Shown one piece after another: positions 47,468 to 58,458 of a stretch of DNA of 64,000 nucleotides (position 1 is its first letter; every line of letters begins with the position of its first letter). The DNA is taken from contig DATNQD010000086.1 in assembly GCA_036702865.1 (NCBI GenBank), forward strand, positions 62,001 through 126,000, in the 5' to 3' direction. A program made the position numbers and the translations under genes. Origin of the DNA: Trichocoleus sp. Lineage in GTDB: Bacteria > Cyanobacteriota > Cyanobacteriia > Elainellales > Elainellaceae. Under the pieces are notes generated by a model. The model saw only the letters and a program-made list of their open reading frames with translations, was not told where the DNA came from and did no database searches.

Positions 47468-48340
47468 ATGAGACGCAGAACGTTGCCCAGGTCAGCAGAA
47501 TGGCAACAGGAGCTTGAAGACATCATTCGTGGCATCTCAGGGGGATTTCTGTTTGGCATTCCGCTGATGTACACCATGGAAGTCTGGTGGATTGGCTCTT
47601 ATGCAACACCATTGGCAATGCTACTGGTACTGCTGTCAACGTTCTTCGTCGTCTTTCTGCTGAATCGAACGGATGGATTTCGGCAGGTTTATCCCGATCG
47701 CCCGATGCAGGCATTAATGGATAGCGTCGAGGCATTGGCGATCGGGGCAGTTTGCGTGACAGGAATGCTAATCCTGCTGCAAGAAATTCGCTGGGGCATT
47801 CCACTGAATGAAGCATTAGGCAAAATTGTGTTTGAGGGTGTGCCTTTTTCAATTGGGGTAGCCTTGGCTCGATCGTTGCTCAATGGCGAGCGAAATCAAG
47901 CGCAGGATGAGAACAGCAGCCAACCTCAGCAACAGGGCAGGTATAGTGCAACACTTGCGGATGTTGGGGCAACACTCGTTGGCAGTATCATCATTGCCTT
48001 TAGTATTGCGCCAACAGATGAGGTGCCAATGCTCGCTGCGGCAACATCTCCGCCTTGGCTACTTGCCATGCTTATTATCTCGCTGGTTCTGTCTTATTTA
48101 ATTGTGTTTGCCGCAGGATTCACGACACAGCAGCGCAGATTACAGCAGCAAGGATTATTCCAGCGTCCGATTACTGAAACGGTGCTTTCGTACTTGCTCT
48201 CACTAGGGGCAGCCGTACTGATGCTGTGGTTTTTCCAGCGTCTTGACTTTCAAGACCCCTGGATCTCCTGGCTTGAACAATCCATGTTGCTCGGTCTTCC
48301 AGCAACGATCGGCGGTGCAGCAGGACGGCTTACCGTATGA
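47468..48340 (+). CDS. TIGR02587-family integral membrane protein
   Basis: This 290-residue protein has about seven membrane helices and a hydrophilic loop near 145-160. It starts with a conserved helix (WQQELEDIIRGISGGFLFGIPLMYTMEVW, split by a turn). This matches the putative integral membrane family TIGR02587, which is almost always encoded beside TIGR02588, as here. Function unknown. Its TGA overlaps the ATG of the next gene by 4 bp, and it starts 39 bp after the GH13-CBM20 gene, so the three may form one operon. Confidence 0.88.
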   Translation: MRRRTLPRSAEWQQELEDIIRGISGGFLFGIPLMYTMEVWWIGSYATPLAMLLVLLSTFFVVFLLNRTDGFRQVYPDRPMQALMDSVEALAIGAVCVTGMLILLQEIRWGIPLNEALGKIVFEGVPFSIGVALARSLLNGERNQAQDENSSQPQQQGRYSATLADVGATLVGSIIIAFSIAPTDEVPMLAAATSPPWLLAMLIISLVLSYLIVFAAGFTTQQRRLQQQGLFQRPITETVLSYLLSLGAAVLMLWFFQRLDFQDPWISWLEQSMLLGLPATIGGAAGRLTV

Positions 48341-48750
48341 AACGAAACACTGACTATCAAACTCGATCGCGGCGACGCTTCTCCGCAGAGCAAATTACTT
48401 TCACCATTTCCTGCATCATTGTCAGTCTATTGATTGGCTTAGTGCTGCTGGTTTGGGCAACCGAAGGGGATGATCCGCCTTTGATTTCAGTCAGTAGCTC
48501 AATGAGCGAAATTCGAGAAGCGCCAGGACAGTTTTACGTGCCGTTTAGCGTTAAAAATACGGGTGGAGGAACCGCAGAAGCCGTTCATGTGATCGGAGAA
48601 CTGCGCGTCAATGGACAGGTTGCTGAATCGGGTGAACAGGAAATTGACTTTCTCTCCAGCGGGGAAGTTGCAGAGGGAGCCTTCATCTTTAGCCGCGATC
48701 CTCAAACCAATCAACTGACCATTAGAGTCTCTAGCTACAAACTGCCTTAA
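48337..48750 (+). CDS. TIGR02588-family membrane-anchored protein
   Basis: This 137-residue protein has a basic N-terminus, one membrane helix (about 22-43) and a C-terminal Ig-like beta domain (FYVPFSVKNTGGGTAEAVHV, split; ending TNQLTIRVSSYKLP). It is the constant partner of TIGR02587 proteins, and its ATGA overlap with that gene shows translational coupling. The beta domain should face the periplasm. No role is established. Confidence 0.88.
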   Translation: MKRNTDYQTRSRRRFSAEQITFTISCIIVSLLIGLVLLVWATEGDDPPLISVSSSMSEIREAPGQFYVPFSVKNTGGGTAEAVHVIGELRVNGQVAESGEQEIDFLSSGEVAEGAFIFSRDPQTNQLTIRVSSYKLP

Positions 48751-48968
48751 AAGATTTTTGGAAAAGAGCTACCTAGTCTGAGCAACGACTGCGACACAAC
48801 TCCAGCCATCTTTTTTCTGATTCAAATTTCTACAACAAAATCACCCCTATCGGAATCACCGATCGATCGCTTGTAGCTATCTGCCAGCGATGATTTTTGC
48901 TTGTAGATTGTTGTTGATCTGCAAATCGATCGCGGCTGCAAACCCGAAGCTGAATCTCCCCTATTCAG

Positions 48969-51527
48969 ATGCTTAACCAACTTTCTCAGTCTAGTAATCA
49001 GCAAGCGACTGTTGCTCAGCAGCGTCAAAAGTTCTATCAGCATCGAGGCACAATTGCCGCAGCAGGTCTCCTGGTCAGCAGTACCGTTGGCATCATTCTG
49101 GCTCTGTGGCAGCAAGCCGATTTGCGGCATCAAGCCAAAACAGCAGATGCGATGTTAGCGCAAAATCCATTTGAAAGTTTGATATTGGCAATTCAAGCAA
49201 CGGGACAAAATCGTTTAGGGCAATTTGGACAATTGCAACCAGAAGTTGAATCAAGTTTGTTGAAAGCGGTACAAACTGTAAAAGAACAAAATCGATTTAA
49301 TTTTGAGAATCGAGTTGATACAGTTGCATTTAGCCCAGATGGACAAACGATCGCAGCAGCAGGAGAAGGTAGCGTTGTTCGTTTGTGGAACATTCAGGGA
49401 AGCTCACAGCCAAACCTTGAGAGCCATCGTCGATCGATTCGGGCAATTACCTTTAGTTCAGATGGCAGAACGTTAGTCGGAACGCCACAAATCAACAGCG
49501 GAGAACTGATGCAGATGTGGGATCTGCCGAGCCGCGCTTTATACCAGACCCCACCCGAAGCACAAGTTTTATCAACAGCCTTCAGCCCCGATCGTCAGTA
49601 TGGAGTCAGCGGCACCATCGACGGCAGAGTATTTTTATGGAATCGGCAGGGTCATTCGATCGCTCAGCTCGCTCCGATTCAAAATGCAAAAGTGACAGCA
49701 GTTGTCTGGAATGGCAACACGATCGCCAGCGGCAGCGCAGACGGCACCATTAGCCTGTGGAACTTAAAAGGGGAAGCACTCGGACGATTACAAGTTGGAG
49801 CAAGCGTTGTTTCAATGAACTTGAGCCAAGACAGCCAACGGCTCATTGCCCAGACCACTCAAGGACAGCAGGCTTTTTTATGGAATGTTGCAGTTGGGCA
49901 GTGGCAACCCATTTCTATCAGTGAAGCAGGTAACACCAGTGCCGCAGACCTCAGCTCCGATGATGCCACGATCGCCAGAGGCTATCCCAACGGCAAGGTA
50001 CAGCTATTATCCCTATTGCAGCCCAATCAACCCTTCAGTCGTCCTTTCCTGGGACATCAGGGAACTGTTACGGCAGTTCAGTTTAGTCCAGATGGCAGCA
50101 AACTGTTGAGCGGGGGACAAGATGGCACCGTTCGTTTATGGGATCTGCAAGACGGGACGTTAGCCGATCGATCTCAGATTCCTGCCTGGGAAAACCCAAC
50201 CCCGACCTCGATCGCCCTCAGCACCAACGGACAGCGACTCATTCTGAGAAACCCGGATGGGTCAATTCGTCTCAGCGATAAGCAAGGAAAGGTCATCCGG
50301 CAATTCAACAATCCCACACCAGATCCAATTCACAAAACAGCAGTCAGCGGTGATGGCAAAAGCATTGCTCTCTATTCTGATTCTGGCAAGACAGCAGATC
50401 GGCAAACAACAGGACAAATTGTCCTTCTAGATACAGACACAAAAGCAATTCGTCTAAGGAAAACGCTAAGTGAACCGATAACAGCCATTGCCCTCAGCCA
50501 GAATGGCAAACAAATGGTCACTGTGAATCGATCGGGTTCTGTCTCTCTCTGGGATGCCCAAGGAAACGCGATCGGGCAGTCTCCTGATACCTTTGCTGAA
50601 GTGAGCCAGGTTGCATTCAGCCCCAAACAAACCACTGTGGCAATTGGTTCACAGCAGGGAACCGTTCGCTTCTGGAATTGGCAAACGGATCAAGTGAGTG
50701 CTCCGATTAAGGTACAGTCAGGCAGCATCACCTCGATCGCCTTCCGCCCCGATGGAAAAACAATCGTCAGCGGTAGCGCCAACGGAGCCTTACAGCTATC
50801 AAGCATTGAGGGCAAGCTCATTGGATATCCGCTTCTGGGACATCAAGCAGCAGTGCGATCGGTTGCCTTTAGCGCTGATGGCAAACAAGTGATCAGCCTC
50901 AGTCAGGATGGTGAAATTCGGATCTGGCAGGCAAATTGGGAAGCCTGGTTAACCACCGCTTGTCGTCGCTTGCAAGATCACATCCTGTTGCAAAACCCAA
51001 CTACGGCTGAAGCGCAAACTGCCAAACTGATTTGTCAGACGCAGGTATGGGGGTTGACAAATGCAAACAAGTTACTCACCCTGAGAGCAATGTCACCTTA
51101 TCTGTCATCTCTCAACTGGCGATCGTCTATTCTGTCTCAGGAAACTCGGCTGATTGTCAAGCGAGGGGAACGGCGGGTCTATGTGTATCACGGCAGCAGT
51201 CTTCAAGCAACTTACCCGATCGCAGTCGGACAACCAGGTTGGGAAACCCCAATTGGCAAATTTCACGTCACCCAAATGCTGCGCGATCCTGCCTGGACAC
51301 ACCCCATGACGCGAGAAGTCTTTCCCGCAGGGCAAGGAAACCCACTGGGCGATCGATGGATTGCATTCTGGACAGATGGCAATCTTTCTGTGGGATTTCA
51401 TGGCACACCCGATCGAGCTTCAGTCGGACAACCTGCTTCTCATGGATGTTTGCGAATGTTCAATGAGGATGTGCGTTCTTTGTACGATATCGTACAATTA
51501 GGGGCAGTTGTTACGGTCGAACCTTAA
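48969..51527 (+). CDS. Membrane-anchored WD40 double propeller fused to an L,D-transpeptidase (YkuD) domain
   Basis: This 852-residue single frame starts with one membrane helix (about 28-46). A short helical linker of the type seen after the NTPase in cyanobacterial STAND-WD40 proteins follows. About 13 WD40-like repeats come next (about 115-665; the FSPDG...VRLWN pattern recurs), enough for two propellers. The C-terminal domain (about 720-850) is an L,D-transpeptidase: VGQPGWETPIGKF, VGFHGT and the catalytic SHGCLRM with H825 and C827. L,D-transpeptidases make 3-3 peptidoglycan crosslinks or attach proteins to peptidoglycan. Helix orientation puts the propellers and enzyme in the periplasm. 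An in-frame TGA lies close upstream of the start, so there is no hidden N-terminal domain. No SH3 or LysM module is seen. Confidence 0.9.
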   Translation: MLNQLSQSSNQQATVAQQRQKFYQHRGTIAAAGLLVSSTVGIILALWQQADLRHQAKTADAMLAQNPFESLILAIQATGQNRLGQFGQLQPEVESSLLKAVQTVKEQNRFNFENRVDTVAFSPDGQTIAAAGEGSVVRLWNIQGSSQPNLESHRRSIRAITFSSDGRTLVGTPQINSGELMQMWDLPSRALYQTPPEAQVLSTAFSPDRQYGVSGTIDGRVFLWNRQGHSIAQLAPIQNAKVTAVVWNGNTIASGSADGTISLWNLKGEALGRLQVGASVVSMNLSQDSQRLIAQTTQGQQAFLWNVAVGQWQPISISEAGNTSAADLSSDDATIARGYPNGKVQLLSLLQPNQPFSRPFLGHQGTVTAVQFSPDGSKLLSGGQDGTVRLWDLQDGTLADRSQIPAWENPTPTSIALSTNGQRLILRNPDGSIRLSDKQGKVIRQFNNPTPDPIHKTAVSGDGKSIALYSDSGKTADRQTTGQIVLLDTDTKAIRLRKTLSEPITAIALSQNGKQMVTVNRSGSVSLWDAQGNAIGQSPDTFAEVSQVAFSPKQTTVAIGSQQGTVRFWNWQTDQVSAPIKVQSGSITSIAFRPDGKTIVSGSANGALQLSSIEGKLIGYPLLGHQAAVRSVAFSADGKQVISLSQDGEIRIWQANWEAWLTTACRRLQDHILLQNPTTAEAQTAKLICQTQVWGLTNANKLLTLRAMSPYLSSLNWRSSILSQETRLIVKRGERRVYVYHGSSLQATYPIAVGQPGWETPIGKFHVTQMLRDPAWTHPMTREVFPAGQGNPLGDRWIAFWTDGNLSVGFHGTPDRASVGQPASHGCLRMFNEDVRSLYDIVQLGAVVTVEP

Positions 51528-52089
51528 GTTAAAAAACTTCGTTTCAGCCAGAAAGATTCTAACCGAACGATCGCGCTAAGTGCCTCTGCTGCTGCTATGT
51601 AGTAGTAGAACTAAGATTTGTATTAAAATTTTAATAAACTTTGATAGATGATCTTGCAAGAAACCATCGATATTGTCATGATGTTAAAAAGAATACAGGG
51701 TGAAATGGTTACTGATACCATTGCGGAAGTAAAATCTAAGCAATAAGCCAAACTTCGATCGCTTTTTTAAGGATTCACAATGATTGGTTTGTCAACTAAT
51801 CAGGGATAGCATCAGTCATAATTCCATTGCGATCGAATGACTGAATGAGCGTTTACCATCAACTCATGCAGGCGATCACCCCCATTTGCAAGCAATCACT
51901 GTTCTGAACTTTAAACGCTTTCATTCCATCATCCTGGGGCTACTTTAGCGCTTTAAAGCTTTAAATAGAAGACCTGTTATTTGCTGCTAAATTATTCAGT
52001 CTATACCCTGTTTGAACAGATGTAGGCATGAATTTGAGTGTCCATATCACTTAATTACTCACCTGCACAGTTAGTGGAACTTGCATCAA
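51528..52089 (+). promoter_or_regulatory. Spacer and probable promoter region of the Pix operon
   Basis: This is 562 bp of A+T-rich non-coding DNA. Just after the upstream stop codon, AAGTT/AACTT forms only a weak stem. The promoter of the phototaxis operon is expected here, but I cannot assign elements with confidence. Confidence 0.4.
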
Positions 52090-53319
52090 ATGCTTGCCTT
52101 TTCGTCCTCTGAATCGATCGAAACGCCGATCGAAACCTTTCAGGTTAGAACTTTTGACGATATAGAGAGCAACATCCAAAAATGTATCCAGTCCTACTTT
52201 ACAGGACGGCTAGATTTAGAGGATCAAGCAACGACAACAATATATTGGAGTCTATTCTTTCGGTTAGGTCGGTTAATGGGTGGAACAAGTCCGGTGCATC
52301 CCATCCGTCGTTGGTGGCAACAGTTGTCTAAGCATTGTCCTCAGCTCAGCACTGACACTCAAGCCGGAAAATTGGAACTGTCTCAAGCTTGGAACCAAGA
52401 TGCATTGGCAGAACTGGTTAAACAGCGAAAGATCAGCTACCAACAAATGGTTGCAGTGATTGAAGGAAATCTGGCAGGGCTTGTATTTGACATTATTCAA
52501 CAGGGAAGACAGAAGCGATATACCGATGAAACAAGGCTTGCCGCCAGACCGCTTCCCGCGGAATTTTGCACTTCCAGTCCGATCCTGATTCAAACCCCTC
52601 ACGTTTTACAGAAGGCAAAGTCTACATGGGACGCATGGCAAAAAGCAGGGTTAGCTCACCATTCTCCGAATGAAGCTCCCGTAATTTGGGATGCAGAGGC
52701 GCTGCGACAACAAACTTCCTTACTGGCTTATCACCATCTCACAAAACTGGCGAATGGAGAACATAGCCTGAGAGATATTGCAGTCAAACTCAAGCAGCCT
52801 CTGGTGCCGCTGGCTCAATCGATTCAGCCCTATCTAGAAGCTGGAATCATGGGCATGGTGGCGATCAAAGACCTCAGCAGCCCACAAGCACCCAGCACCT
52901 CATCTTCTCAGCTCAGCCCAACAGCACCTTCTTCAACTGCGCGATCGAGTCCGTTGGTTGCCTATATCGAAGACAGCCGCTTTGACAGCCTCGCCATGAG
53001 CCAGATTTTGACCTCAGCTGGCTATCGTTTTATCAACGTGCGAGATCCGGTACAGGCACTCCACATCTTGCTAGAGCAAAAGCCAGACTTGATCTTCTTA
53101 GATCTGCTGATGCCCGTAACCAACGGATATGAAGTTTGTACTCAAATCCGCCGGATCTCAGCGTTCAAGGATATCCCGGTCATTATTGTGACAAGCAGAG
53201 ATGGTGTGGTCGATCGCGTTCGATCTAAGCTCATCGGAGCCTCAGGCTTTATTGCAAAGCCGATCGTGGCGGAAACTGTTTTGTCAACGCTCGAACATTA
53301 TTTACCAATTTCTCAGTAA
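52090..53319 (+). CDS. pixG: PatA/PixG-like response regulator
   Basis: This 409-residue protein has a PatA-type N-terminal domain (about 20-275, DUF4388-like: SYFTGRLDLED, LFFRLGRLMGG). A Ser/Pro linker (about 280-305) and a C-terminal receiver (about 308-405) follow, with the acidic pair in YIEDSR, phospho-acceptor Asp in LIFLDLLMP and Lys in IAKPIV. It is the first gene of a pixG-H-I-J-L type operon, in the order of the Synechocystis phototaxis genes. I start at the ATG at 52090; a TTG three codons upstream is possible. In that system it acts downstream of the CheA-like kinase in motility control. Confidence 0.88.
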   Translation: MLAFSSSESIETPIETFQVRTFDDIESNIQKCIQSYFTGRLDLEDQATTTIYWSLFFRLGRLMGGTSPVHPIRRWWQQLSKHCPQLSTDTQAGKLELSQAWNQDALAELVKQRKISYQQMVAVIEGNLAGLVFDIIQQGRQKRYTDETRLAARPLPAEFCTSSPILIQTPHVLQKAKSTWDAWQKAGLAHHSPNEAPVIWDAEALRQQTSLLAYHHLTKLANGEHSLRDIAVKLKQPLVPLAQSIQPYLEAGIMGMVAIKDLSSPQAPSTSSSQLSPTAPSSTARSSPLVAYIEDSRFDSLAMSQILTSAGYRFINVRDPVQALHILLEQKPDLIFLDLLMPVTNGYEVCTQIRRISAFKDIPVIIVTSRDGVVDRVRSKLIGASGFIAKPIVAETVLSTLEHYLPISQ

Positions 53320-53398
53320 ATTTTCTAAGAAGCGTCCGGAGGTTGGAATCGAACAATGGTTAACGTTATAGGTTTTGTATCACAAATACTGGGACGCA

Positions 53399-53764
53399 AT
53401 GACTACAGTCCTTCTCGTTGAAGATTGCCTGACAGATGCCGAACTTTTGACCCACTATCTTAGACAAGCAGGTCTTGCTGTGGTTGGAGTCACAAATTGC
53501 GAGGAGGCTCGAACTAAACTGCAACGACACAAGCCTGACTTAGTACTACTAGATGTGATTTTGCCAGGAAAAAGCGGTTTTGAACTCTGCCATGAGCTTA
53601 AAACAAATCACCTCACTGAACAAATTCCAGTCATTATCTGCTCAACCAAAGGAACAGATGTGGATAGGCTCTGGGGAGCCATGCTGGGAGCAGATGCATA
53701 CCTGGCAAAACCGATCGATCAGAATGACTTGGTGACTACAGTAATGCGACTTATTGCAGCTTAA
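53399..53764 (+). CDS. pixH: PixH-like CheY response regulator
   Basis: A 121-residue single receiver: VEDCLTDAELL at the N-terminus, phospho-acceptor Asp in LLDVILPGKSG, Thr/Ser in ICSTKG and Lys in LAKPID. The start MTTVLLVED (53399) matches the family; an upstream frame to 53375 adds eight residues. It lies second in the operon, 15 bp before the CheW gene. It is expected to accept phosphate from the hybrid CheA protein encoded downstream and to act on pilus-based motility. Confidence 0.9.
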   Translation: MTTVLLVEDCLTDAELLTHYLRQAGLAVVGVTNCEEARTKLQRHKPDLVLLDVILPGKSGFELCHELKTNHLTEQIPVIICSTKGTDVDRLWGAMLGADAYLAKPIDQNDLVTTVMRLIAA

Positions 53765-53779
53765 ATAAAGAGGATAAGT

Positions 53780-54316
53780 GTGGAGCTACCGATAGAACAG
53801 ACCGCCAGTAGTTTAAATACGCTGATCTTAGAGCCGCTGCCACCAGAGAACCGTCAACGATTCCTCCGCTTTACATTAGGCGAGGATGTTGGGCTGCTGC
53901 CACTGGAGCAAATTACAGAAGTATTCAGCCTCGAAACCGCAAACATTTTACCGGTTCCAGAAATGCCTGCCTGTATTTTGGGAATCTGTGGATGGCGTGG
54001 CGAAATGCTTTGGCTTTTGGATTTTAATGACTTCGTGGGATATCCTTCTCCGTTTCAGCAGGAGGTTATCCCCGCTTCACTAATGATTATTGTTATTCAA
54101 TCCAATCAGCAGTCGATCGGGATTGGAGTGCAGCAAGTAAACGATATCGAGTCTCATGATCCTCAGCAGCTACAGCCAGTGGCTCCTGGGCTGTTTCCCC
54201 CAGCGTTGCTTCCATTTGTCCTGGGAACGTTACCAGGCTGTTGCGATGTAGTCCTCAATATTCAAGAAATTAGTCAATCTCCCCTATGGAAAAAACACCA
54301 GGAAGAAAGCGTCTGA
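53780..54316 (+). CDS. pixI: PixI-like CheW coupling protein
   Basis: This 178-residue CheW domain links chemoreceptors to CheA. Visible features are [23 protein letters not shown] (split), the [22 protein letters not shown] segment (split) typical of CheW, and a long C-terminal extension. The start is GTG with AGAGGA directly upstream. Its 3' end overlaps the 5' end of the receptor gene by 31 bp, which couples their translation. The extra cysteine pair GCCDVV near the end is unusual but probably structural. Confidence 0.9.
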
Positions 54317-57300
54317 AGTTTTTTGGCTTAAATGCCCCATCCACTTCACCGCTTCAGCCAGAGCTTCCAGCATCAACTTCAGCACCGACTCCAGAAATTT
54401 CAGCCAACGATCGCAACCGCACCATGGAGGATGAAACTTTGTCTGCAACAGGATCATTCAAGCAGGGGAAAAACTATCCAGACCGCAACCAAACTGAATC
54501 AAACGCTAAACTGCAATCGCCATACAATTCAGATTTGAGAAACAACTCAGACTTAAAAAACAACTCAGACTTAAGAAACAATAATCCATTACTTTCCCTC
54601 CGCAGCAACAGTTTGAATGGAAATAGCCAGGGAAGTGCGCCTTTAAACTGGATCTTCTCGCTCGCCAGCCAAATGCAGCAAGCCGAAACTTTGGAAACGC
54701 TGCTACAAACTGTCATCGCAGAAGTTCAGGAACAGCTACGGGTCGATCGCACCTTGGTCTACCGTTTACAAACGGAGCGGCAGGGAATTGTGGTGGCAGA
54801 ATCTTTGGGCACTGGCTACACGCCCAGTTTAGGAGAGTCGCTGCCAACGCTCTCTTTTGGGGCGGATAATCTGGAAGCCTATCACCAACAACCTTTCGTT
54901 GCCCTCAATAGCACCACCCAACAAACGCTTGCTCCCTATCAGCTACAGCTTTTAGAACGATTTCAGGTACAGGCAAGCCTGAGTCTACCTATCTGGCTGG
55001 AAGGACAATTCTGGGGGTTACTGGTGGTGCAGCAATGTAGCGCGCCTCGTCAGTGGCAAGAGGCAGAAATTCTGCTGCTGCGTCATGTCGTCACTGAAAT
55101 GCAATTGCAAATGCAGCCGTTGGAATTTCGGAGCCAGCGCCAGCAAAAAGCCAGAATGGAAAGCGTTTTGGCACAAATTCTAGAAGCCACGACCCCGTCT
55201 TCTGATCCAACAACTGCCCTGGCAAACCTCTGCGACCAGCTGCGGCAGTTCTACAAAGCCGATCGCGTCGCGTTCTACCGCTTTTATCCAGATTGGACAG
55301 GTCAATTTGTTGCAGAATCAGTGGGTGCTGGATGGCTCTCGCTGGTTGAGGCACAAGTTCAAGACAACAGCCTCACTTCTGCCAAAATCGTTTCCTACGA
55401 TCGCTGCACAACAATGCGAACGGGAACAAGAATTGCTATTGATGATAAAGACAAAATCTTACAGGATACGCAAGGCGGCAGCTATCGCAAGCGGCAAAAA
55501 GTCAAACGGATCAACGATATTTATCAGGCTGGTTTCTCTGATTGCTACATTGAAACCCTCGAAAAATATCAGGCAAAAGCTTATTTGATTGCTCCTGTCT
55601 TTGAGAAAGATGATCTCTGGGGATTACTTGCTGTTTATGAATGTTCGGGTTCGCGGAACTGGCAGGATTCTGATGTCACGCTGCTTTCCCTCCTGAGTGA
55701 GCGGCTGAGTACGGTGCTGCGGCAACTCGATTTTGTAGCAAAACTGCAAGATAAATCTACTCAGCTAGAAAAGCAATCACAGCAGCTCGCGCGATCGGTT
55801 GAACAAGGAGCCGCCTATAGCCAGCTAATCTACAAACTTGGGACAGAAATCATTCAGGAAAACTTTTCCCTTGATCACCTGCTGCAATTTGTTGTGAGAC
55901 AAGTCCGCAGACAGTTAAACAGCGATCGACTGGTTTTGTATCGCTTTAACCCCGACTGGAGCGGCGAGTTTATGGTTGAAGCCATTAGCAGCAATGCTCG
56001 ATCGATTTTGGGCACGCAACTCCAGGAAGACCCTTTGAAGGCGGCTCAAGGGGGACGCTATCGCCAGCACAACACATTGAGCGTTAATGATATTACCAAG
56101 GGCGATCAGTCTGATTTTCCAGTCGAGCTGCTGCAAGATTGGGGCACTCAGGCATATTTAGCTGCTCCTATCTTTAAAGAAGAACAGCTATGGGGATTAA
56201 TTATTGCGTTTCAAAATGATGCTCCACGTCACTGGGAAGAAATTGATGTAAACCTGCTGGCTCAAGTGGGAGTGCAAGTAGGTCTGGCATTACAGCAAGC
56301 TGAGTATTTAAAGCAGTTGCGAGAACAATCGCAGCAGATGAGCCAATCGGCAAAACAAGGACGCTATGTGGCTTCCATTGTCGATCGCATTCGGCAATCG
56401 CTGGATTTGCAGCAGGTTTTCAGAACGACTGCGCGAGAAATTCGCAACTTTTTGGATGTCGATCGCGTTGCCATTTTCAAGTTTGAGGTGAATACACGCT
56501 ATACGGATGGTCAGACGATCGCGGAAGATGTCCGTCCGGGCTACACCTCTGCACTTGCAGTCAAGGTGACAGATCACTGCTTCAGTGAAGGCTTTGCAGA
56601 GCAGTATCAAAAGGGTCGAGTTTGGGCAGTTGCCGATATTTATAATGCCAAGCTTCAGACTTGCTACATTGAGGTACTGGCGCAGTTTCAGGTTCGTGCT
56701 AATTTGATTATTCCGCTCCTGCGAGGCGAAGAACTCTGGGGGTTGTTCTGCATTCATCAGTGCAGCGGACCGAGACAGTGGCAGGACTCAGAGATTGAAT
56801 TTGCCAAACAAATCGCAGCACAGCTCAACGTTGCGATTCAGCAAGGTGAATATCTGGAGCAATTGCAGCAACAGTCACAAAAGCTGGAAAAAACCGCTGA
56901 ACGAGAACGCCTGGTGACAAAGATCGTTGAACGGATGCGACAATCACTGGATTTGCAGCGAACCTTTAAAACCACTGCAAGAGAAATCCGTAACTTCCTC
57001 AGTGTCGATCGCGTCGCAGTCTTTAAGTTTGATTCTGGTTCCGACTATAACCAGGGTGAAACAGTGGCGGAAGATGTCCGTCCGGGCTACAGTTCGGCGA
57101 TCGGAGTCAGAATTGATGACCACTGCTTCGGAGAACGCTATGCCGAACTCTACCGCAATGGACGGATTTGGGCAGTGACAGATATTTATCAGTCAAATTT
57201 GCAGACTTGCTACATCGAAATTCTGGAGCAGTTTCAAGTTCGCGCCAATCTCATTATTCCGCTGTTTAAAGGCGAAGACCTCTGGGGGCTGTTCTGTATT

Positions 57301-58458
57301 CACCAGTGCAGCGATGCTCGCGAGTGGCAAGAGGCAGAAATTGAATTTGCCAAACAAATCGCAGCGCAACTCAACGTTGCCATCCAGCAGGGGGAGTTTG
57401 TCGAGCGATTGCAGCAGCAGTCACGACAATTAACAGAAGCGGCACAGCGCGAAAAATCGGCAAAGGAACTGCTACAGCAGGAAGTGATTCAACTCCTTTC
57501 GGCAGTTCGACCTGCCCTGGATGGAGATCTCACCGTTCGCGCTCCGATTACAGAAGATGAAGTCGGAACGATCGCCGCTGCTTATAACAATACGCTGGGC
57601 AGCCTCCGGCAGATTGTTGTCCAAATGCAGACTGCCTCAAATCAGGTAGCTCAAACTTCTCAATCGAGTGAATCGGCAATTGCCAGTCTCACTGCCCAAG
57701 CCCATACCCAGTTTCATGCGCTGAATCAGGCGTTGGAGCGAGTGCAGTATATGGCAAATGCAACCCAAGCCGTCGAGACGAATGCTCAGCAAGTGGAAGC
57801 AGCCGTGCAGCAGGCGAATCAAATTGTCCTGGCGGGAGATGCCGCGATGGATCGCACCGTGGAGGAAATGGAGGGCATTCGAGAAACCGTTGCAGAGACG
57901 AATCAGCGACTTCAGAGGCTAAGCGAATCCTCACAAAAGATCTCTAGAGTGGTCAGCCTGATTAGCAACTTTACAACGCAAACCCATTTGCTGGCGCTCA
58001 ACGCCGCGATCGAGGCAACCAGAGCCGGGGAGTATGGGCGAGGCTTCGCAGTGGTTGCGGATGAAGTTCGATCGTTGGCACGACAGTCTGCCAGGGCTGC
58101 AACGGAGATTGAACAGCTTGTGCAAGAAATTCAGGCAGGCACCGCAGAGGTTTCAGTCGCGATCGAAACGGGAATTGAGCGAGTTGTGTCTGGAACGGAT
58201 GTTGTAAACGAAGCGCGAGAAAATTTGAACGCAATCATGAACGCTACCAGCCAAATTAGCCAACTGGTTGCAGGGATTACGCAGGCAACTCAGGAACAAA
58301 CTCAACAATGCCAATCTGTGACAAAAACGGTGACAGAAGTGGCAACGATCGCGAATAAAACCTCTGAGGATTCTGTCGCAATTTCTGAGTCTTTCCAGCA
58401 ACTCCTGACAATGGCGCAGAACCTTCAGGCGAAGAGTGAGCAATTTAAGGTGGATTAG
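54286..58458 (+). CDS. pixJ: PixJ-like methyl-accepting photoreceptor with five GAF domains
   Basis: The 1390-residue receptor has a low-complexity N-terminus (about 1-120, with three NSDLKN-type repeats) and five GAF domains (about 130-280, 295-490, 515-680, 705-865, 880-1040). HAMP-like (about 1055-1110) and MCP signalling domains (ending near 1385; [20 protein letters not shown] hairpin tip) follow. GAF4 and GAF5 each have a DXCF cysteine (C765 and C947 in DHCF) and a canonical bilin cysteine followed by Tyr instead of His (C793, C975 in TCYIE). GAF2 has a lone C420-Tyr, and GAFs 1 and 3 lack the cysteine. Synechocystis PixJ has membrane helices; none is visible here, so it should be cytoplasmic. 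DXCF modules usually sense blue/green-type light. Confidence 0.88.
54526..54579 (+). repeat. 18-bp tandem repeat inside the PixJ-like gene
   Basis: Three near-identical 18-bp units (54526-54543, 54544-54561, 54562-54579; consensus AACTCAGACTTAAGAAAC) encode [12 protein letters not shown] and NSDLRN. The repeat lies in the unstructured N-terminal tail, so copy number could vary in frame without harm. Confidence 0.85.

Follow-up and report, generated by a model that had tools for sequence, protein, structure and literature searches.

The window analysed here, a stretch of 64,000 nucleotides from Trichocoleus sp., carries at 48969–51527 of its forward strand a single open reading frame (ORF) with an ATG start, 852 amino acids (aa) and no internal stop; the opposite strand holds many stops. 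The open frame reaches just five codons 5' of the ATG (857 aa in all), so no NTPase or similar domain is hidden upstream. From its N-terminus, the predicted protein consists of a short positively charged segment, a transmembrane (TM) helix, a helical linker, a WD40 array, a tail with two cysteines, a spacer and a YkuD L,D-transpeptidase (LDT) domain, located as follows:

48969–51527, +: whole gene, TM–WD40 (7 + 6 blades)–tail–YkuD, 852 aa (ORF, Pfam, AlphaFold2 model, orthologue alignment)
48969–49049, +: N-terminal segment, residues 1–27, net charge +3 in the 15 residues preceding the TM helix
49050–49106, +: TM helix, residues 28–46 (hydropathy 2.13; helix 29–62 in the model; aligns with the TM helix of receptor L101, see below)
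49107–49280, +: helical linker, residues 47–104, equivalent to the NTPase-to-WD40 segment of STAND receptors
49281–50153, +: propeller 1, seven WD40 blades, residues 105–395 (model strands, structure matches)
50154–50933, +: propeller 2, six blades, residues 396–655 (model strands)
50934–51053, +: helical tail, residues 656–695, with invariant C665 and C689 (alignment; STAND-WD40 receptors usually end so)
51054–51134, +: low-confidence, variable spacer between the receptor-derived part and the enzyme, residues 696–722 (pLDDT < 50 at 709–723)
51135–51524, +: YkuD LDT domain, residues 723–852 (PF03734, E 3.4e-24; PDB LDT sequences)
51399–51401, +: H811 of the FHGT motif (residues 810–813), conserved in every aligned fused or standalone LDT domain
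51438–51449, +: SHGC, residues 824–827, with H825 and the predicted nucleophile C827 (motif conserved in the alignment)

The top hydropathy window of the protein falls on residues 28–46, and by the positive-inside rule the segment preceding it is likely cytoplasmic. The WD40 repeats matched Pfam PF00400 with an E-value of 1.5e-59. In an AlphaFold2 model computed from a 22-row alignment (A2; mean pLDDT 81.7, pTM 0.70), helices run to residue 103 and the WD40 array extends from ~105 to 655, with 13 WD40-type blades by manual strand count. Residues 105–395 match seven-bladed WD40 structures (7big, Z 34.9, rmsd 2.5 over 280 residues), which leaves six blades for the remaining strands (396–655), and the best Foldseek match to both propellers together is the double propeller 2ymu (E 1.5e-38). 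At the other end of the protein, PF03734 covers residues 726–850 with 86.5 bits against a cut-off of 23.4, the best of the PDB LDT sequences is 9tyw (E 2.5e-18; 1y7m, E 2.6e-12), and the FHGT and SHGC motifs are kept in all 21 LDT rows of A2. These results bear out the original prediction, which had described one continuous frame joining a membrane helix, about 13 WD40-like repeats arranged as a double propeller and a YkuD domain with a full catalytic site (H825 and C827). A promoter and terminator scan of 48300–52200 returned no more sites than were found in shuffled sequence, and none that was helpful.

The fused LDT domain shares 51–67% identity with LDTs that stand alone in related cyanobacteria. 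As the window genome holds five YkuD matches, the fused one included, it represents an additional paralogue, which may be redundant given that the genome retains other LDTs. The expectation that LDTs normally come with LysM or peptidoglycan-binding modules calls for a qualification, since most cyanobacterial LDT frames in the data span only ~160–300 aa, which leaves no room for a large extra module. A listing of ~155 YkuD matches from 146 cyanobacterial genomes, which stops short of the weaker ones, includes a single frame longer than 500 aa, and this one encodes the fusion as well (in G010); a contig scan with a single-protein query recovered mostly standalone LDTs. Separately, G010 contains two adjacent LDT genes on opposite strands (L082) that share a long branch in the LDT tree, and adjacent LDT pairs are also present in G054 and G096.

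The non-catalytic part of the protein can be traced to receptors encoded in the same genome. L102, a STAND-WD40 protein of 1179 aa, aligns with residues 1–694 at 32% identity and ends right there, and L101 (1780 aa; nSTAND1, TM helix and WD40) aligns with residues 7–682, TM helix included, at 27%; a third protein, L103, likewise aligns colinearly with the WD40 array, the STAND-type linker and the tail. No STAND NTPase was found in the fused protein among the best 25 of 66 Pfam matches, and only 104 residues precede the array. From the L101 and L102 alignments, the fused protein corresponds to a receptor's C-terminal half, extended by an LDT domain past the receptor's natural end. The resemblance originally proposed for the N-terminal linker thus extends to the membrane helix, the propeller array and the C-terminal tail, and the proposed capture of a transpeptidase by a WD40 array is well supported by this end-to-end alignment. 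Architecture and ancestry together show that the propellers of an immune-type receptor were joined to a predicted cell-wall cross-linking enzyme. The same genome also holds an orphan frame of 108 aa (L104:1586–1912) that is similar to the last WD40 blades and tail of STAND receptors, possibly a remnant.

A query running from the last WD40 blade over tail and spacer through the LDT domain was matched over its full length in three further genomes (G023, G010 and G033; 54–57% identity, in frames of 986, 937 and 695 aa), and across 390 genomes of the class it returned, besides LDT-only matches, those three alone plus the window genome. A separate query with the N-terminal 364 residues, at E 1e-45, was matched in these four of the 390 genomes and nowhere else; both thresholds are strict, and more divergent fusions could escape them. 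Since queries from both ends return the same four genomes, the two halves stay together. The widespread architecture that would have made the prediction unremarkable is excluded at this sampling (4/390 genomes). The three orthologues, all from the same family, are colinear with the window protein over its whole length at 43–45% identity. Conservation among the orthologues is highest in the LDT domain (62–78%) and the linker (residues 63–104, 52–74%), followed by propeller 1 (42–66%), and is lowest in the spacer (4–43%), which also varies in length. The dN/dS ratio is 0.05–0.19 wherever dS could be estimated, with dS mostly near saturation. Judged from these alignments, the full-length architecture is conserved far beyond chance, and the LDT domain with its intact motifs is under purifying selection. 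Propeller 1 is close to 290 residues throughout and propeller 2 measures 260, 313, 301 and 84 residues across the four proteins, being longer in P0002 and P0003 than in the window protein and reduced to 84 in P0004. In the G033 orthologue (L045:7741–9807), from a metagenome-assembled genome, most of propeller 2 is gone, through either true contraction or assembly collapse.

In a tree of 77 LDT domains, computed without the very long branch L074, the four fused domains form one clade (99/89), which indicates that the fusion arose once. The broken fused group seen in a first tree was due to L074, and the clade was restored on its removal. Within the family the fusion is patchy (4/36 genomes, 4/21 genera), implying that losses or transfer occurred. 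A further candidate suggested by coverage in strain CCP2 (L046) proved to be a standalone LDT beside a kinase-WD40 gene and was rejected; the fused copy of this strain lies at G010:C33.

In G010, G033 and G023 the fused gene has a further gene immediately 5' of it, encoding a small protein of 148–161 aa with a cysteine- and proline-rich N-terminal part, one TM helix and a C-terminal tryptophan, for which no Pfam family was found:

L045:7217–7663: small single-TM protein gene, directly upstream of the fused gene
L044:12695–13180: small single-TM protein gene, directly upstream of the fused gene
L107:1369–1827: small single-TM protein gene, directly upstream of the fused gene

A profile search detected this gene in 3/390 genomes, all of them fusion-bearing and always with the two genes adjacent; the chance of three of three falling among 4/390 genomes is ~4e-7 by simple counting that ignores relatedness. 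In the G023 protein, a collagen-like GPP stretch additionally lies close to the C-terminus. The small gene is absent from the window genome, where the 218-bp upstream gap showed no remnant by eye. The upstream neighbours there encode a DUF2391 membrane protein (47468–48340) and a small protein with one TM helix that matches CARDB weakly, below the cut-off (48337–48750). Downstream, at 52081–58458, response regulators are grouped with a CheW-like protein and a large GAF-domain protein resembling chemoreceptors; they probably form a phototaxis or pilus cluster without relation to the fusion.

LDTs act on peptidoglycan, and the LDT domain should therefore be periplasmic. Positive charge before the TM helix exceeds that after it in three of four orthologues (P0004 shows the reverse, with two before and three after), which agrees with an N-in/C-out orientation that would place the LDT on the peptidoglycan side. 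The non-catalytic cysteines located outside the TM helix are even in number, which could point to periplasmic disulphides, but the STAND receptors of the same genome have the tail cysteines too. We favour, with a confidence somewhat above even, a membrane-anchored periplasmic LDT whose receptor-derived propellers would dock or recruit a partner or substrate, or position the enzyme. The role originally proposed, wall crosslinking by an enzyme scaffolded through protein–protein contacts, would suit this layout. In the ancestor, the C-terminal half of a cyanobacterial nSTAND1-TM-WD40 receptor was joined to an LDT domain placed behind the receptor tail, with the NTPase absent. The N-terminus would lie in the cytoplasm and the helix would anchor the protein in the inner membrane, with propellers and enzyme in the periplasm, where the LDT may form 3-3 peptidoglycan cross-links or attach a protein to peptidoglycan via C827. 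The propellers would act as the docking platform, and the foremost candidate for their partner is the small single-TM protein whose gene sits immediately 5' of the fused one in three of the four genomes. Of the two propellers, the first is more likely to do the docking, because propeller 2 varies in length while propeller 1 is steady, and a fixed double-propeller platform appears inessential, since P0004 keeps just 84 residues of propeller 2. The window genome, which lacks the small upstream gene, counts against the partnership with the small protein. The most economical reading is an inner-membrane-anchored LDT that would be placed by a protein-docking propeller and perhaps partnered by a small membrane protein.

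Other readings of the same architecture can be weighed against this one. The C-terminal array of STAND receptors is generally held to be the sensor, and a propeller module derived from such receptors, together with the well-conserved membrane-proximal linker (52–74%), would suit an enzyme switched on when its propellers sense an envelope or foreign ligand, reinforcing the wall upon stress or attack. We consider such gating unlikely, as the NTPase switch that converts ligand binding to signal is gone and the low-confidence, variable spacer that joins the enzyme is a poor allosteric conduit; the variability of the spacer favours tethering over tight allosteric gating. LDTs often carry wall-binding modules, and the WD40 array might substitute for LysM or peptidoglycan-binding modules as a peptidoglycan or polysaccharide adhesin that holds the enzyme to the sacculus, a reading that we regard as distinctly improbable: WD40 propellers usually bind proteins or peptides, and the closest structures, found mainly with propeller 1, include no carbohydrate-binding relative, even though there are cyanobacterial chitinases that carry propellers at the N-terminus (PMC9218822). 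STAND-WD40 proteins count as candidates for conflict systems of multicellular bacteria (PMC7159879), and the fused protein might be a receptor-derived conflict effector whose LDT serves as a wall-modifying toxin against invaders or kin; its only secretion signal is the membrane anchor, no immunity gene was identified, and its LDT closely resembles the common standalone LDTs of cyanobacteria (51–67% identity), all of which makes this very improbable. Finally, a sequencing or assembly error that fused two neighbouring genes, a concern already voiced with the original prediction, has nothing for it beyond the odd architecture and is set aside by the three colinear orthologues, whose independent assemblies share the junction and the order of parts, leaving it a negligible probability.

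The fusion links bacterial NLR-like receptors with peptidoglycan cross-linking, two fields usually studied separately. The architecture suggests a wall enzyme that would be steered by a receptor-like docking platform, and the fusion provides a conserved natural experiment of single origin in which the ligand-binding module of a receptor is reused within an enzyme; the small membrane protein to which it is genetically linked offers itself as a candidate partner. Since LDTs have peptidoglycan as their substrate, it also makes a testable statement on the topology of TM-containing STAND-WD40 receptors. A bolder extension, which we hold to be rather doubtful, is that the arrays of cyanobacterial nSTAND1-TM-WD40 receptors face the periplasm and that one of these immune-type arrays was rewired with a small lineage-specific membrane partner so as to steer cross-linking of the wall when an envelope ligand is sensed. 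A search for WD40, YkuD and cyanobacteria together returned no paper in the literature searched, which covers few subscription journals; YkuD and WD40 were co-mentioned there in a secretome list and nothing else, and the retrieved portions of papers on d-transpeptidases with propellers or cyanobacteria contained no description of the fusion. The LDT and propeller families themselves are well known; what appears to be new is that WD40 and YkuD are combined, that this combination has a single origin and that a small gene is linked to it.

Among these known families, the YkuD-type LDTs (PF03734; B. subtilis YkuD, 1y7m, and LdtE-type enzymes) share the catalytic domain and SHGC site of the fused protein, but are encoded in short open frames. 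The cyanobacterial nSTAND1-TM-WD40 receptors (PF20703 plus WD40; e.g., L101) have the order of TM helix, linker, array and tail in common with it, whereas the fused protein lacks both the NTPase and an upstream effector domain and carries an LDT after the tail. A WD40 double propeller is also found in 2ymu, which we take to be the structure of WRAP (Npun_R6612). WRAP is almost repeat-identical and part of a STAND ATPase protein (PMC9218822). Unlike those of WRAP, the blades of the fused protein have diverged and carry an enzyme.
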